Part shown: one piece after another, positions 4,533-46,570 of the stretch
Layout of the letters: each line of letters begins with the position of its first letter
Numbering within the stretch: position 1 is the stretch's first letter
Source: Aneurinibacillus terranovensis DSM 18919
Lineage (GTDB): Bacteria > Bacillota > Bacilli > Aneurinibacillales > Aneurinibacillaceae
Assembly: GCF_000430625.1 (NCBI RefSeq)
Contig: NZ_KE387179.1
Span: 1 to 58,941 of the forward strand
Direction of reading: 5' to 3'
Length of the DNA stretch: 58,941 nt
The notes under the pieces: generated by a model
Seen by the model: only the letters and a program-made list of their open reading frames with translations
What the model was told of the DNA's origin: nothing
Database searches by the model: none
Made by a program: the position numbers and the translations under genes

Positions 4533-4555
4533 CTCAAATTGTGTGTATGCTTTCG

Positions 4556-4592
4556 GACTTTGTTTCTTGCAAGGAGAAACAAAGTCTTTTTT
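4556..4592 (+). terminator. Intrinsic terminator after the methyltransferase gene
   Basis: The perfect 12-bp stem GACTTTGTTTCT / AGAAACAAAGTC with a 7-base loop is followed by TTTTTTA. Confidence 0.9.
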
Positions 4593-4608
4593 ATTTCTAA
4601 AACTATGA

Positions 4609-4630
4609 TATAATGTTAGAAAATTTAACA
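4609..4630 (+). promoter_or_regulatory. -10 element and GlnR/TnrA box in front of the coiled-coil/ammonium transporter operon
   Basis: TATAAT at 4609-4614 is a consensus -10, though the -35 is poor and lies in the preceding terminator. TGTTA-N7-TAACA at 4614-4630 exactly fits the GlnR/TnrA consensus TGTNAN7TNACA. It overlaps the predicted start site (near 4621), a position expected for repression rather than activation. Confidence 0.65.
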
Positions 4631-4651: not shown

Positions 4652-5065
4652 ATGAGGGTGGAGGTTGAAGCAACGGACCGCGTTCTTTTCGAAGAAGGGG
4701 AGGAAGAGAAAATACTTACTTGCCTGACCAAAATGCAGAATACAAGAAAAGAAATGGTCAGAAGCTTACGGGAGAGAATCGAGCATTATGAAAAAAAACG
4801 CGCAAAGGAGCAGGCGGCATACCAAAAAATGTCCGCGCTGCGGAGATGGATTGCCGGTAAAACACCGGATCATCATCTGGCCGTTGAAAATCTAGTATAT
4901 ATAAAGCAGCCTATGCAGGAAATTGAACGGATCAATGCTGAATTGCAGCGCCTGCAGCGCCTGGCGGAAGCCGCCGCCAAGCGTTTCGATGAAATATCCA
5001 TCCCCTTGGTATTTATTGACGAATTTCTCGAATTCTATATGGAAGGAACACAACTTTATGAATAA
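4652..5065 (+). CDS. Coiled-coil protein of unknown function, translationally coupled to an ammonium transporter
   Basis: 137 residues, starting at an ATG with AGGTGATTTAAC before it. I do not recognise a family. Residues 20-60 and 88-115 are charged heptad-like helices (KEMVRSLRERIEHYEKKRA; EIERINAELQRLQRLAEAAA) linked by a short basic region with LRRWIAGKTPDHHLA. There is no membrane segment or signal, so it is predicted cytoplasmic. It is the first gene behind the GlnR/TnrA box, and its last 8 bases overlap the start of the ammonium transporter gene. It stands where a PII (glnK) gene often does but is not PII: the T-loop and the ferredoxin-like pattern are absent. A role with the transporter is inferred from position only. 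Confidence 0.7.
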   Translation: MRVEVEATDRVLFEEGEEEKILTCLTKMQNTRKEMVRSLRERIEHYEKKRAKEQAAYQKMSALRRWIAGKTPDHHLAVENLVYIKQPMQEIERINAELQRLQRLAEAAAKRFDEISIPLVFIDEFLEFYMEGTQLYE

Positions 5066-6287
5066 GATCGCTACATTAAGCGCGGGCATGGATACCGTAT
5101 GGGTCGTCTTGACGGCTGCCATGATTTTGTTGATGGAAGGCGGCTTTGCTCTGCTTGAAGCGGGATTTGTCCGGCGAAAAAATGCTGTGAGTATTATTAT
5201 GAAGGTTTTCGTTGACATTACGTTTGGTACGCTCTGCTATTATATAATCGGTTTTGCCCTTATGTATGGGAAAGATGCTTTTTCATTTATCGGAACGAGC
5301 GGGTTTATGTTAAAAGGCGATTTAAGCCATCTGGCTTATCCATTCAGCTACGATACTTTTTTTGTGTTTCAGGCTGCTTTTGTTATCGCAGTAATTTCGA
5401 TTGTTTCCGGGGCGGTAGCGGAGCGTTTTCAATTTCGTGCGTATATTCTATATGCGATTTTTATGACTGCGTTTCTGTATCCATTATCCGGCCACTGGGT
5501 CTGGGGCGGGGGGTGGCTTGGCAAAATGGGAATGCTGGATTTTGCAGGTTCAGCTACGATCCATGCGCTCGGTGGTTTCGGTGCGTTAGCTGCTGCGATT
5601 CTGGTAGGTCCGCGTCATGACAAGTACCGGGAAAATGGCGGGATTATTATTCCAAGCAATATTCCCCTCGCGTCCGTTGGAGCGTTCCTGCTCTGGTTTG
5701 GCTGGTTCGGGTTTAACGCCGGTTCCACGTTAAGTGCATCCGATACGCGAATTGGCCATATCGCATTAACGACAATGCTTGCGGCTTCTTCAGGGGGAGC
5801 GGTAACCCTGCTGTATACGTTGTTTCGTTATAAAAAAGCCGATGCACCGTCCGTCATCAACGGATCTCTTGCCGGTCTGGTTGGTATTACTGCGGGCTGT
5901 GCGTTCGTGAGTGATAACGCGGCTATCATTATCGGTATTGTCTGTGGGATGGCGATGATGGGGGCAACGTCACTTCTTGATGTTTTTAAAGTGGATGATC
6001 CGGTTGGGGCTTTTCCTGTTCATGGGGTTTCAGGGATGATCGGTACGCTCGCCGTTGGTTTATTTGCCAGCAACGGAGGGTTATTTTCCGGCGGGGGCTG
6101 GCATTTACTTGCCGTGCAGATGCTCGGACTTGTGACCCTTTGTACATGGGGATTTGTCGGAACCTGGGTATTTTTAAAGGTGACATCGTTTTTTATGCCG
6201 CTGCGCGTGTCAACGATGGAAGAAAAAGTAGGGTTGGATATCGCTGCCCACGGCATCATGGCCGTCAGCGATGCGGACACCATCTAA
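5058..6287 (+). CDS. amt: Ammonium transporter (Amt/Rh family), copy 1
   Basis: 409 residues and about 11 membrane segments. Amt hallmarks are all present: FALLEAGFVRRKN, the DFAGSATIHALGG block with pore His 169, DPVGAFPVHG with pore His 322, and GHWVWGGGWLGKMG. The family conducts ammonium/ammonia inward under nitrogen limitation. The start at 5058 is chosen because it follows GGAAGGAAC and overlaps the upstream gene, and because a longer reading would add a non-homologous tail. It is co-transcribed with the coiled-coil protein and ends at a terminator at 6329. A second, diverged copy lies at 43853-45172. Confidence 0.95.
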   Translation: MNKIATLSAGMDTVWVVLTAAMILLMEGGFALLEAGFVRRKNAVSIIMKVFVDITFGTLCYYIIGFALMYGKDAFSFIGTSGFMLKGDLSHLAYPFSYDTFFVFQAAFVIAVISIVSGAVAERFQFRAYILYAIFMTAFLYPLSGHWVWGGGWLGKMGMLDFAGSATIHALGGFGALAAAILVGPRHDKYRENGGIIIPSNIPLASVGAFLLWFGWFGFNAGSTLSASDTRIGHIALTTMLAASSGGAVTLLYTLFRYKKADAPSVINGSLAGLVGITAGCAFVSDNAAIIIGIVCGMAMMGATSLLDVFKVDDPVGAFPVHGVSGMIGTLAVGLFASNGGLFSGGGWHLLAVQMLGLVTLCTWGFVGTWVFLKVTSFFMPLRVSTMEEKVGLDIAAHGIMAVSDADTI

Positions 6288-40076: not shown

Positions 40077-40084
40077 ATTTTTCG

Positions 40085-40114
40085 TCACATTTTGTTACAT
40101 TTTGTTACATTTGA
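40085..40114 (+). promoter_or_regulatory. Three 10-bp direct repeats upstream of the HD-GYP gene
   Basis: TCACATTTTG, TTACATTTTG and TTACATTTGA follow each other with a 10-base period. TTxACA-type direct repeats spaced by one helical turn are the pattern bound by PhoP-type response regulators. A TATAAT at about 40152-40157 may be the promoter -10. Confidence 0.45.
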
Positions 40115-40198
40115 CGGATAATTTCTCATACTAATGTAATTCTTCGCATGCTATAATTACTTTAAATTTAGCGAGATGCTTTGAAAGAAGGCTATAGG

Positions 40199-41972: not shown

Positions 41973-42728
41973 TCAGGACATGAGGATATACAAATCCTGC
42001 AGCGTTCGAATGCCGCGGTTTCCACATTCTTTTAATAACGTCAGCCATAACTGGGATGTCATTTTTACATCTCCCATTGCCGTATGGCGTTGTTCAGGGC
42101 GGATAGAGAAAAACTGGAGTGCATCATCCAGCGTAGTAAACCCTCCGTTAAACCTCATCCCTTCCATCACCTTTTGGATTTCGATAATGCGCTGCGTCAT
42201 TCTCATGCGATGGTTTTTCCAGAGAAACGCATTGAGAAACGCGATATCATGGGCTATATGATACCCGACAATTGTTCCGTGGTTTATGAATGCTAATAAC
42301 TCAGGGACAACCTCTGACAGACGGGGGGCGGATTCCACCTCTTTATCCGATAAGCCGGTTAAAACCGCAACCGCTTCCGGGATAGGAACGGTTGGATTAA
42401 TATGCGTCGAAAATATAGGTTCAACCGTTTCGAATTGGACCACTTTTGCCGCGGCAATCGAGATAATCTCATCACCGTGTTCAGGGTGGAATCCCGTCGT
42501 TTCGGTATCTAGAACGATAAATTCGATATCCCCCAGAGGTGTATTCATCTCCTGGTGGTTCTTTCCCGCTTCTTTTAATAAATTTCGTATGAAAGCCTGG
42601 TGCTCCAAACCGGCGGTAGGTCCTCCTTTGCTTACCATAGTAAGCTCATTCCGGTTAAAACCAAGAGAAAGCAAACGGGAAATAGCCATTCTCCAATTGC
42701 CGCCCGGACTGGGTCCATTTCGGTTCAT
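41973..42728 (-). CDS. DnaQ-like 3'-5' exonuclease (DEDDh)
   Basis: 251 residues. The exonuclease core has EFIVLDTETTGFHPEHGDEIISIAAAKV (Exo I with D-x-E), HDIAFLNAFL (Exo II Asp) and HTAMGDVKMT (Exo III, DEDDh). The N-terminal about 75 residues (NRNGPSPGGNWRMAISRLLSLGFN) are specific to this gene. It is the last gene of an operon with a DUF294 nucleotidyltransferase (20 bases upstream) and an ammonium transporter. DUF294-exonuclease gene pairs are known elsewhere beside acetate transporters; the joint function is unknown. Confidence 0.85.
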   Translation of the reverse strand: MNRNGPSPGGNWRMAISRLLSLGFNRNELTMVSKGGPTAGLEHQAFIRNLLKEAGKNHQEMNTPLGDIEFIVLDTETTGFHPEHGDEIISIAAAKVVQFETVEPIFSTHINPTVPIPEAVAVLTGLSDKEVESAPRLSEVVPELLAFINHGTIVGYHIAHDIAFLNAFLWKNHRMRMTQRIIEIQKVMEGMRFNGGFTTLDDALQFFSIRPEQRHTAMGDVKMTSQLWLTLLKECGNRGIRTLQDLYILMS

Positions 42729-42748: not shown

Positions 42749-43831
42749 TTAAAATTTTCGGATAAACTGACGTTGTATTTCATGCTGAACTTTTTTAATT
42801 TGCTTCATCGCTTGACGTAAATGCTTGAAATCGTCTGCAGGGATTTTCTTAAGATTAATATGATGGTCAAGTAAATCTGTCTTCTGTTCCTGATAGAGGT
42901 GGCTCTGCAACCGGAGATGAAGAATATGCGAGAAAGCGGTTCGAATAGAATCCGCAAATGCATGATCCCATACGCCTTTTTCCTCGAGAAGCCCGATTCT
43001 TTCTATGGTGGATGTTTCGGCAATGCCGTAAGTTAATGCGAAAAGCCGTATACAATTAACAAACTGCATATACACTCCGCGCTTCAGGTTAAACTTGCCC
43101 GCATTCTCCCCCCAGCGTTCTACAAGAACTTGCCCGAAGATACTGAGAGGAACCGTGTGACCCGCAGCGTGCTGCGCAAGCCGCTTCAGTAAAGGGCGGT
43201 TGTTTTTAGCCAGCGAGCACAAATACTTTCGCAAAGATTCCCCGGGTTTTTTGCTTCCATAAAGAATGCGGAAGTCAGCAGCAATCAACAGAAAACGCAC
43301 ATCATCGGGTGAGAGGTTTTCCTCCCACCCTTTGAGCATGTTTTTCCATTCGTCTTCTGACTTACACCATTTTTTATTGGTGGCCATTACATTTCCCTGG
43401 CACAGAGGGTAACCGACTTGTTGTAAATTGTTTACGCCGTATTCAGCCATTCGCCGGACATACGCTTCTGCCTGCTTAGGGTCCTGGGAAGGGGAAAGCC
43501 GGTAAACAATGCCGTTGTCCTGATCGGTCCAAACGGTATGCTCCCTTCTTCCTCCGCTTCCCATAATGACCCAGCTCCACTCCTCCGGTGGTGAACCGGT
43601 TCCTTCCCGAATGACTAATTGTTCCGCGTGCTGCAGGGCTTTTTGCATAATTACATCATGGATATGGCTTAAAAACAAATAGATTTGACAGGTTTCAGTT
43701 GAATTGCATTGCATGGATTGCAAAACAGGAGACAAGGACAGCTGGACTTTTTTCAGTTCTTCTATTGTCCTTGTGTTTGCCACTTGAGACGTTAATGCCT
43801 CCCATTCTTTCCGGTCATCGATACTACGCAC
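42749..43831 (-). CDS. DUF294 nucleotidyltransferase, GlnD-like, without CBS domains
   Basis: 360 residues from the GTG at 43831, 4 bases after AAAGGAGG; the longer ATG-less start at 43852 is rejected. The core nucleotidyltransferase motif GSGGRREHTVWTDQDNGIVY (91-110; G91, S92, acidic D103 and D105) matches DUF294/GlnD enzymes, and the C-terminal half is the DUF294_C helical domain. In other bacteria DUF294 proteins carry N-terminal cNMP/CBS domains; here these are absent. Position between an ammonium transporter and a DnaQ exonuclease suggests a nitrogen-linked modification system, which is inference. No PII (glnB/glnK) gene is present to be its substrate in this window. Confidence 0.85.
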   Translation of the reverse strand: MRSIDDRKEWEALTSQVANTRTIEELKKVQLSLSPVLQSMQCNSTETCQIYLFLSHIHDVIMQKALQHAEQLVIREGTGSPPEEWSWVIMGSGGRREHTVWTDQDNGIVYRLSPSQDPKQAEAYVRRMAEYGVNNLQQVGYPLCQGNVMATNKKWCKSEDEWKNMLKGWEENLSPDDVRFLLIAADFRILYGSKKPGESLRKYLCSLAKNNRPLLKRLAQHAAGHTVPLSIFGQVLVERWGENAGKFNLKRGVYMQFVNCIRLFALTYGIAETSTIERIGLLEEKGVWDHAFADSIRTAFSHILHLRLQSHLYQEQKTDLLDHHINLKKIPADDFKHLRQAMKQIKKVQHEIQRQFIRKF

Positions 43832-43852
43832 AATGCCTCCTTTGTGGCACAA

Positions 43853-45172
43853 TTACAGGGAACTCACTTTATTTTCCACTTTATTTTCTTTTGTGTTCAA
43901 ATGCTCAGGATATCCGTAAGCACCGTGTTCGCTAAGATCCAGGCCGATAATTTCTTCCTCCGCAGTTACCCGAAGCCCCATGACCAACTTCAAAACGTAG
44001 AGGATAACAAAGCTGACAACTGCAACATACAGGGTAGCGCCCAGTACACCTGTTATTTGCACGAGTAACTGGTGCCATCCGCCACCGTAGAACAGTCCCG
44101 CGTTCCCTACGCCTGTCGCTTTCACGAGGCGCGGAGAAGCGAAGAATCCTGTAGAAATTGTGCCCCAAATTCCGGCAATTCCATGAACGGAAAACGCGCA
44201 GATTGGGTCGTCGATTCCTTTGCGTTCAAAGTACAGGGAAGTAAAGAAAGTAATAATTCCTGCCAATGCTCCAATCACGACGGAAGCCCACGGTTCAACA
44301 AAGGCACAGGAGGCTGTAATGGCAACAAGTGCTGCTAATACGCCGTTAATCATGCTCGTTATATCGGCTTTGCCGAGAACTGCCCATGCAATTAACATAG
44401 CAGCAACAGCGCCGGCAGCGGTCGCAAGATTGGTTGTTAACGCGATGTACCCGAAGAAACCGTCTTTCACCGACAATGTTGACCCGGGGTTAAAACCGAA
44501 CCAGCCAACCCACAATACGATGGCACCCAGTACGGAATAAACCTGATTATGGCCTGGGAGTAAATTTGGTTTCCCTTTACTGGTAAATTTCCCAATGCGA
44601 GGTCCGAGCAGAAGAGTAGCAACGAGCGCCGCAATTCCACCTTGCAGGTGAACGACGGTTGACCCGGCAAAATCTTGCATACCCATCTGACCGAGCCATC
44701 CGCCGCCCCATACCCAGTGGCCGATGACAGGGTAGATAACAATGGTAAAAAGAGTACCGAAGACAAAATATACGGAGAGTTTAGCCCGTTCAGCAAAACC
44801 TCCCCAGGCAATGGCCAGGGAAACCGCAGCGAAAGACAATTGGAATAAGAATTTTAAAGAAAGCGGGACGTGCGCCCATGAGAGGGAAGAAAACACTTTA
44901 TCAACCTGGCTGTCGGGGACATTTAACATCCAGCCGCTTAATCCTATAAAACTATTTCCATCCCCGAATGTAATCGCAAACCCGAATAACCAGAAACAAA
45001 TACTGGCTATCGCAAAACTAAGTACTTGCTTTCCTGCAACGTGTCCGGCATTCTTCATCCGGGTGGAACCTGCCTCAAGTAAAGCAAATCCGGCTTGCAT
45101 AGAAATAACTAAAATTGCGGCAACAAACGTATAAAACGGATCGATAAGCCCCAAAATTTGGTCCATTTTCAT
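43853..45172 (-). CDS. amt: Ammonium transporter (Amt/Rh family), copy 2
   Basis: 439 residues, about 11 helices, twin pore His at 175 (AGSTVVHLQGG) and 330 (CAFSVHGIAG). Start at the ATG following GGGAGGAGTAGTA. Its C-terminal tail (RVTAEEEIIGLDLSEHGAYGYPEHL) is the usual regulatory C-terminus seen in Amt proteins. It is diverged from copy 1 (409 residues, 5058-6287) and is the first gene of the operon with DUF294 and the exonuclease. A GlnR/TnrA box lies upstream at the activator position. Confidence 0.95.
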   Translation of the reverse strand: MKMDQILGLIDPFYTFVAAILVISMQAGFALLEAGSTRMKNAGHVAGKQVLSFAIASICFWLFGFAITFGDGNSFIGLSGWMLNVPDSQVDKVFSSLSWAHVPLSLKFLFQLSFAAVSLAIAWGGFAERAKLSVYFVFGTLFTIVIYPVIGHWVWGGGWLGQMGMQDFAGSTVVHLQGGIAALVATLLLGPRIGKFTSKGKPNLLPGHNQVYSVLGAIVLWVGWFGFNPGSTLSVKDGFFGYIALTTNLATAAGAVAAMLIAWAVLGKADITSMINGVLAALVAITASCAFVEPWASVVIGALAGIITFFTSLYFERKGIDDPICAFSVHGIAGIWGTISTGFFASPRLVKATGVGNAGLFYGGGWHQLLVQITGVLGATLYVAVVSFVILYVLKLVMGLRVTAEEEIIGLDLSEHGAYGYPEHLNTKENKVENKVSSL

Positions 45173-45204
45173 TACTACTCCTCCCTTGTGTTATGTTTTA
45201 TGAC

Positions 45205-45255
45205 ATTATAATGTTGATTTAGTAGGGAGTGCAAATGATGTTACATTAGTTAACA
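45205..45255 (-). promoter_or_regulatory. Promoter and GlnR/TnrA box of the amt copy 2 operon
   Basis: On the minus strand -10 TATAAT (plus-strand 45205-45210) has TTGCAC 18 bases upstream as a -35; the predicted start is near 45198. TGTTA-N7-TAACA lies at 45239-45255, its centre about 49 bases upstream of that start. This is the position from which TnrA activates nrgAB (amtB-glnK) in B. subtilis. Confidence 0.7.
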
Positions 45256-45322
45256 TGTGTTTTCTTTCTGTTTTCACCTTTTTAAATCGTTTTTCATGCT
45301 TTTTCGCTCTTTTTTAATGTAA

Positions 45323-45370
45323 CCATACCTGACATGACAGCTGTCTCCATACCTGTCATAACAGTTATTC
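45323..45370 (+). repeat. Two 24-bp direct repeats upstream of comGA
   Basis: CCATACCTG-CAT-ACAG- units at 45323-45346 and 45347-45370 match at most positions with a perfect 24-base period. They lie about 82-130 bases before the comGA start and may be regulator sites. Confidence 0.6.
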
Positions 45371-45451: not shown

Positions 45452-46570
45452 ATGACGGATATAAGCGAATATGTACACGATCTCATTGAAAAAGGAATTC
45501 AGGCCGGAGCAAGCGATATTCACATTGATCCGATTTCCGATGGAGTATTGGTTCGTTTCAGAATGGATGGTTTTCTTAAGGAAATAGAATGGAAAGAAGA
45601 AATGTGGGGACCGCCTGTTGTGTCGAGAATTAAGTTGATGAGCGGTATGGATATCGGCGATAGAAGGATGCCGCAGGACGGAGGTTTTTCCTTTGAGCTT
45701 CAGAGAGATGGGGAGAAGGAGACGATTGATATACGGGTAGCGACCCTGCCCACCATTTATGGCGAAAAAATCGTTCTTCGCTTACTGCCGCACAATACCT
45801 GCTACCACTCTCTTTCCTCGCTCGGAATGAAGCCGGAGCATGTACAAGCTGTCCGGGAGATGCTGGTGCAGTCGCAGGGCATGATTCTAATTGCCGGACC
45901 AACGGGGAGCGGAAAGACGACAACGATGTACGCGATGCTGCATGAGTTGCAGCGTGAAGGTCGCAACGTCGTTTCGCTTGAACAGCCCGTTGAATATAGA
46001 ATTGCCGGTGTGAATCAGGTGCAAATTCATCCTCGTTCCGGGTTGTCTTTTCATGAAGGGTTACGGGCGGTTCTAAGGCAGGATCCGGATGTGATTTTAG
46101 TAGGAGAAATACGGGACAAGCAGACGGCGGAAGTGGCCATTCGCGCCGCGCTGACAGGACATCTAATCATTACAACCGTCCATACGTTTGATTCCGTCAG
46201 CACGATTATCCGCTTGCTGGATATGGGGATTGAACCGTATTTAGTAAGTTCTGCTATTACAGGAATAATTGCTCAGCGACTAATTCGAAAAGTTTGCATC
46301 CATTGCTTCGGAAAAGATGCTTCGTGCAGCCGGTGCAAGGGAGCGGGCTTTTTTGGGAGAACGGGAATCTATGAGGTGCTTGCAGTGGACGAGAGCCTGC
46401 ACCCGTATATTTTGAATTGCAGTTCTGCCGAAGTGATGCGTAAATATATGGTTTCCAATGGCTTTGTGACTCTATCCTCTATTCTGGAGGAAAAGGTTGC
46501 TCAGGGAGTAGCTGAACCGACCGAGTGTCAGCGATATATGACTTATGGTCATAAAAGCACGGTGGTCTGA
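45452..46570 (+). CDS. comGA: ComGA, competence type IV pilus ATPase
   Basis: 372 residues. GspE/PilB-type ATPase: Walker A IAGPTGSGKTTTMYAML (around 150), Asp box VILVGEIRD, Walker B and His boxes (GHLIITTVHTFD), and a tetracysteine zinc motif CIHCFGKDASCSRCKGAGF near 290. It powers assembly of the ComGC pseudopilus for DNA uptake. First gene of the comG operon; GGAAAGGAG before ATG. Repeats and a palindrome lie upstream. Confidence 0.95.
   Translation: MTDISEYVHDLIEKGIQAGASDIHIDPISDGVLVRFRMDGFLKEIEWKEEMWGPPVVSRIKLMSGMDIGDRRMPQDGGFSFELQRDGEKETIDIRVATLPTIYGEKIVLRLLPHNTCYHSLSSLGMKPEHVQAVREMLVQSQGMILIAGPTGSGKTTTMYAMLHELQREGRNVVSLEQPVEYRIAGVNQVQIHPRSGLSFHEGLRAVLRQDPDVILVGEIRDKQTAEVAIRAALTGHLIITTVHTFDSVSTIIRLLDMGIEPYLVSSAITGIIAQRLIRKVCIHCFGKDASCSRCKGAGFFGRTGIYEVLAVDESLHPYILNCSSAEVMRKYMVSNGFVTLSSILEEKVAQGVAEPTECQRYMTYGHKSTVV

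Follow-up and report, generated by a model that had tools for sequence, protein, structure and literature searches.

Two ammonium transporter units in a stretch of 58,941 nucleotides from Aneurinibacillus terranovensis DSM 18919 share the same predicted off-switch, a GlnR/TnrA box lying over the -10 element and the start of transcription, and the only difference is that the second unit (amt2) has an extra site further upstream. We refer to this whole stretch as the window; it lies within contig C24 of a genome of 4.25 Mb in 98 contigs. The regulation itself is of a known kind. The anatomy of the promoters gives good support to a different dependence of the two units on it, amt1 on repression only and amt2 on repression plus activation, and we think it rather probable that both are ordinary members of the GlnR/TnrA regulon under graded, not opposite, control. 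The new lead is the family of the small protein ORF1 encoded in front of amt1, which is the least understood part and more interesting than the regulation.

Anatomy of the two promoters

The features of the amt1 unit and its promoter are:

4555..4587, plus strand: hairpin resembling a terminator (14-pair stem, then a T run) at the end of the preceding methyltransferase gene
4609..4614, plus strand: predicted -10 element TATAAT of the ORF1-amt1 unit, from the sequence; TATAAT is found here in 5 of 6 orthologous loci
4614..4630, plus strand: GlnR/TnrA box, the predicted operator over -10/+1 of ORF1-amt1, from pattern match and conservation
4652..5065, plus strand: ORF1, first gene of the unit, 137 amino acids, a conserved helical-hairpin protein of unassigned function
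5058..6287, plus strand: amt1, ammonium transporter (PF00909, E 1.3e-111), overlapping the end of ORF1 by 8 bases

The sequence-only reading from which we started had described perfect TGTNAN7TNACA boxes at 4614-4630 and 45239-45255 before two ammonium transporter units. A pattern search confirmed both boxes, and both units contain a transporter (PF00909, E 1e-111 for amt1 and 1e-117 for amt2). The first box does stand before the amt1 unit as claimed, but the first gene of this unit is the 137-amino-acid ORF1 and not the transporter: the box really belongs to ORF1, amt1 being the second gene. Its first T is the last T of the TATAAT at 4609-4614. This -10 element is extended by a TG at 4606-4607 (TG-N-TATAAT, 4606-4614), and a good -35 is absent. 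With the start predicted at about 4621, roughly 7 bases past the -10, the box would span about -7 to +10; the ribosome site lies between the box and the ORF1 start at 4652. The repression geometry proposed for this box stood up, as it overlaps the predicted -10 and the arrangement recurs in relatives. The spot where an upstream activating box of amt1 would sit is occupied by the hairpin at 4555-4587. A downstream start that would place the amt1 box at -49 was rejected, since it would fall inside ORF1, where no -10 was found by reading.

The amt2 unit reads in the other direction:

45239..45255, minus strand: distal GlnR/TnrA box, centred about -49 from the predicted start, activation position
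45229..45234, minus strand: possible -35 element TTGCAC, from the sequence, 18 bp from the -10
45205..45210, minus strand: predicted -10 element TATAAT, from the sequence and the genome search for TATAAT fused to a box
45189..45205, minus strand: proximal GlnR/TnrA box over -10/+1, perfect, repression position
43853..45172, minus strand: amt2, ammonium transporter (PF00909, E 1.3e-117)
42749..43852, minus strand: DUF294 nucleotidyltransferase-like protein, second gene of the unit (PF03445, PF10335)
41973..42728, minus strand: DnaQ-like exonuclease, third gene of the unit (PF00929)

Counting from the start predicted off the TATAAT at 45210-45205, the distal box does have its centre at about -49. 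The earlier reading had further set the boxes of the two units in opposite positions, which does not hold: amt2 also has a box of the amt1 type on its own -10 (45189-45205), overlooked before. It is in the same register as that of amt1, its first T again being the last T of TATAAT, and the positions are therefore not simply opposite. The contrast drawn between the amt boxes was only half right, but the boxes themselves are real and are kept in relatives. A ribosome site lies between the proximal box and the amt2 start (45172, minus strand), and a TTGCA between the two boxes is also found in three other loci (L167-L169). A consensus promoter scan called neither the amt1 nor the amt2 promoter because their -35 hexamers are poor; these missed calls are a weakness of the promoter prediction for both units.

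In B. subtilis amtB-glnK (nrgAB) is activated by TnrA from a site at -49, a position for which our literature search returned no text. The amt2 unit is like nrgAB in combining an ammonium transporter with GlnR/TnrA boxes, the distal one at -49, and unlike it in its extra proximal box and in having no glnK/PII gene nearby or anywhere in the genome. The proposed likeness to nrgAB thus holds only for the -49 position, as the genome-wide search for PII came back empty.

Upstream of amt2, before the gene at 45452 for a comGA-like type II/IV secretion ATPase, a further perfect box TGTAACCATACCTGACA (45318-45334) lies in a 23-nt direct repeat (45318-45340 and 45342-45364; 83% identical, spacing 24). 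The box may belong to amt2 or to comGA; the repeat that contains it could form a control element of its own or have arisen by chance.

Frequency of boxes in the window and the genome

The window contains five perfect TGTNAN7TNACA sites (starts 4614, 40093, 45189, 45239 and 45318) against a chance expectation of 0.79, and five or more were reached in 0 of 100 shuffles. A lone perfect box is weak proof, because the whole genome has 85 perfect sites compared with 59 for the control pattern read backwards. The weight of evidence for the boxes rests on their conservation in relatives and not on single perfect matches. Random sequences have a perfect box in a stretch of 40 offsets in 0.13% of cases. 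TATAAT fused to a perfect box in the same register occurs three times genome-wide, at amt1, at amt2 and before the gene of a PLP enzyme.

This third fusion (L139; contig C6, 137946-137967) precedes a PLP enzyme of Cys/Met metabolism resembling methionine gamma-lyase, a possible new member of the regulon. The perfect box at 40093-40109 lies within repeated TTTTGTTACA units with CGTCA/TGACG arms on the flanks; by eye, this region (40080-40115), located upstream of an HD-domain protein gene, resembles some other operator.

Conservation of the ORF1-amt1 promoter

In a sample of only 15 genomes of the order, ORF1 is present in six, always before the amt1 orthologue. Five of these six loci carry the element TATAA[TGTTAG..] at the same place, and in the remaining one (G004) a perfect box lies 5 bp further down. 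Among the five genomes the 22-nt element is 91–100% identical, compared with 63–91% for the 60 nt upstream and 69–86% for the ORF1 coding DNA, the latter two values coming from a gapped alignment which favours them. The 300 nt read at each of the six loci, our own included, held no box with 0–1 mismatches at an activation position.

Across a sample of 398 genomes of the class, ORF1 was found in 22, in each case with an amt1-kind Amt gene (70–100% identity) downstream of it on the same strand. A box match lies at most 70 nt before ORF1 in 22 of 22 loci, 21 being perfect and one having one mismatch. These represent few independent cases, since 16 of the 22 genomes belong to one genus with near-identical sites; the four loci of this genus that were printed show TATAAT and, about 20 nt further on, a box containing the ribosome site. 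In four additional loci (L043-L046, from Paenibacillus sp. Soil750, P. alba, a Bacilli MAG and a Cohnella sp.) ORF1 is convergent to an amt1-like gene, and a perfect box again lies just before ORF1 (4/4). ORF1 is thus located beside the amt1 clade of Amt genes in all 26 loci found, with a box at each ORF1 start. For the one amt1-like gene lacking ORF1 (in G003), no box was present in the 900 nt read upstream. Since ORF1 has the box at its start even when convergent, and the G003 gene without ORF1 is boxless, the box goes with ORF1. The repression geometry of amt1 is conserved in relatives.

Arrangement of boxes at amt2-type genes

The comparison of amt2 covered 12 genes, our own and 11 from relatives; the PII-linked amt genes L176 and L184, for which no box with 0–1 mismatches was found in the 350 nt read, and other amt paralogues were left out. 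Six of the 12 have a pair of boxes 50–53 bp apart (50, 51, 51, 52, 52 and 53; one proximal box with one mismatch), and taking the likeliest -10 of each gene the distal box is centred at -47 to -50. In G014 the pair is wider, at 69 bp, and in G012 two boxes separated by 23 bp lie further upstream. The other four genes (G003, G006, G009, G010) have the distal box alone, one with a mismatch, a proximal box with 0–1 mismatches being absent; all four genomes have TnrA. The two-box design is not universal, 6 of 12 amt2-type genes departing from the 50–53 bp pair, and this counts against the scheme of control proposed below.

Three relatives (G005, G007, G008) have GlnR only: their best matches to a TnrA query adjoin glnA and match GlnR at 77%. 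As G005 and G007 are single-contig genomes, it is fairly certain that these two have no TnrA. The pair at amt2 is retained in all three genomes and the amt1 element in G005 and G007, so GlnR can presumably serve both.

Within one genus the proximal amt2 box is present in 3 of 3 TnrA-less genomes (G005, G007, G008) and absent in 4 of 4 with TnrA, a split across G003 and G005-G010 that probably reflects only two lineages. Furthermore, tnrA lies directly upstream of amt2 and in the same direction in G001 (L166, L224, L230) and G002 (L165/L217). In G001 a second tnrA has behind it a 39-residue fragment resembling the start of amt2, as a duplication would leave.

Regulators, PII and a third transporter

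The GlnR and TnrA homologues which the earlier reading presupposed were both detected by genome search. The GlnR gene (G000:C3) is located 5' of glnA with a box upstream, and its best PDB match is GlnR (E 2e-33, compared with 2e-13 for TnrA). The TnrA gene (G000:C48) likewise has a box upstream; its best PDB match is TnrA (E 6e-29, compared with 4e-16 for GlnR), and it scores 160.7 bits for NCBIfam NF053740 (cut-off 140). The sequence marks of a GlnR/TnrA regulon are present, with one box in the promoter of amt1, two in that of amt2, and genes for both regulators. The PII gene adjoining amt that marks the amtB-glnK (nrgAB) type was not found: a search for PF00543 gave no hit in the genome, including beside amt2, with a control search positive in 13 of 14 genomes. 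In the order, 4 of the 15 genomes have PII.

A third amt gene (L001, contig C60) has no perfect box in its 4.2 kb locus. A copper amine oxidase gene (PF01179) lies upstream of it and a transposase-like gene is close by; perhaps this third transporter handles ammonia freed from amines.

Proposed regulation and alternatives

At nitrogen excess, glutamine-inhibited glutamine synthetase activates GlnR and sequesters TnrA, and under limitation TnrA acts (PMC6191146, PMC5569456, PMC3412718; statements on these papers and on PMC9948412 refer to the parts of their text available to us). A box on -10/+1 should block and one near -49 should activate, so that both units should be shut at excess and amt2 further activated under limitation. 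From this we infer start sites, binding and direction of effect as follows. At nitrogen excess GlnR, activated by glutamine-bound glutamine synthetase, would sit on the ORF1-amt1 operator (-10 to about +10) and block RNA polymerase; falling nitrogen would release it. The amt2-DUF294-dnaQ unit would have the same blocking operator and a further one with its centre near -49; there TnrA, or GlnR where TnrA is absent, would recruit polymerase under limitation. A fall in nitrogen would raise both transporters, amt1 by release only and amt2 by release and activation. The scheme builds on the boxes, their geometry to the predicted promoters, their conservation, the presence of GlnR and TnrA and the absence of PII, all of them observed.

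Such a two-site layout has a counterpart in the nif promoter of P. polymyxa WLY78, where an upstream GlnR site I activates and a downstream site II represses (PMC6191146). Like nif, amt2 has upstream and downstream GlnR-type boxes flanking one promoter, in this case a predicted one, with one box upstream of the -35 and one at the start. The nif sites are 118 bp apart with site II 24 bp downstream of the start (PMC6191146), whereas those of amt2 are 50 bp apart with the proximal box on the -10; the gene is a different one, and our genome has TnrA as well. The order amtB-DUF294-dnaQ on one strand, as found in the amt2 unit, is that of known Bacillales operons (PMC3412718, Table 1 note d). The first part of section 5 of PMC3412718 marks GlnR sites per gene and makes no mention of a spaced pair on the -10.

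Opposite or sequential control is possible, if unlikely. TnrA would then repress ORF1-amt1 under limitation while activating amt2 from -49, amt1 serving sufficient or middling nitrogen and amt2 scarcity. A TnrA gene is present in the genome and, on its complementary strand, the amt1 box fits by eye the whole of the longer TnrA consensus with an ATTTT core given in the available text of PMC5569456, TGTNANATTTTNTNACA, so TnrA may bind it too; the box before the organism's own tnrA also fits all of it, and the amt2 boxes fit less well. There is also a precedent in B. subtilis alsT, on which GlnR acts as repressor at excess and TnrA under limitation (PMC5569456) and is a possible model for amt1, the transporter being a different one. 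The proximal box of amt2, however, is at the same repression position, and TnrA bound there would hinder amt2 too. In addition, the amt1 element is kept in the two TnrA-less single-contig genomes (G005, G007), so its conserved role cannot need TnrA. Their amt1 box fits repression by GlnR at excess, in the same direction as amt2 and as graded control would have it.

It is improbable that the distal amt2 box acts cooperatively with the proximal one in repression and not in activation, through two GlnR dimers separated by about five turns of the helix and possibly looped. The constant spacing of 50–53 bp in six genes would suit it, as would B. subtilis glnRA, which is repressed via cooperative two-site binding (PMC6191146), and P. 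polymyxa amtB. The latter has two GlnR sites (Table 1, PMC9948412) and behaves as GlnR-repressed: under either nitrogen condition it was reported to be higher in the glnR mutant than in the wild type, which favours repression, leaves activation by GlnR unproven and weighs against the graded scheme. The four distal-only genes among the 12 amt2-type genes speak against it, as all four genomes have TnrA and a lone far-upstream box is poor for repression; moreover, looping at nif was not supported by the authors in the available text (PMC6191146). Finally, that the boxes are functionless chance matches in AT-rich promoters is hardly credible: the 85 genome sites against 59 for the reversed control mean that many single sites are chance, but position and sequence are conserved above their surroundings, the box recurs in 22 of 22 ORF1 loci, the pairs are repeated and the random rate is 0.13%.

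The ORF1 protein family

In an alignment of 11 ORF1 members, E44, E47, Y57, S61, R64, H74, H75, A77, V78 and E79 are invariant (start residue apart). The structure model (mean pLDDT 87.5) consists of long helices at 18–59 and 73–110 with a short helix between them, a final helix, and small strands close to either end. Conservation is highest at 57–79, around the turn, where the confidence is lowest within the core (73–84). Searches of the sequence against Pfam, NCBIfam, PHROGs and PDB sequences gave no match above a curated cut-off and only weak coiled-coil-like matches (PHROGs has no cut-off; best match E 0.005), and a Foldseek search of the model against the PDB returned nothing below E 0.9. 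A second structure comparison reached Z values up to 9.8, nearly all for long helices or helical hairpins, a common arrangement, so that ORF1 was placed in no known family or fold. Among open-licence texts, as far as their content was accessible, we found nothing on this family or on paired control of two amt genes beyond PMC3412718.

A role as a plain PII substitute was rejected, since two of the six ORF1-containing genomes of the order (G001, G004) have PII beside another amt; the other four are without PII. The constant company of the amt1 clade, together with a box of its own even where ORF1 does not share an operon with amt, suggests that ORF1 has a job tied to ammonium uptake. More speculatively, and as a guess from gene position that we regard as rather unlikely, ORF1 could be a cytoplasmic partner of the Amt1 clade, made together with it under GlnR and gating or localising Amt1 as GlnK does AmtB. 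Such a partner would present an invariant hairpin tip (S61, R64, H74, H75, A77, V78, E79), and several of its hosts are PII-less.

Implications

The amt1 and amt2 promoters offer a clean two-promoter test of one box serving both repression and activation, and the relatives without TnrA are an experiment of nature that could show whether GlnR steps in for it. Where ammonium is taken up without PII, one may ask what holds the transporters in check, and the ORF1 family with its boxes offers a concrete candidate for a test.
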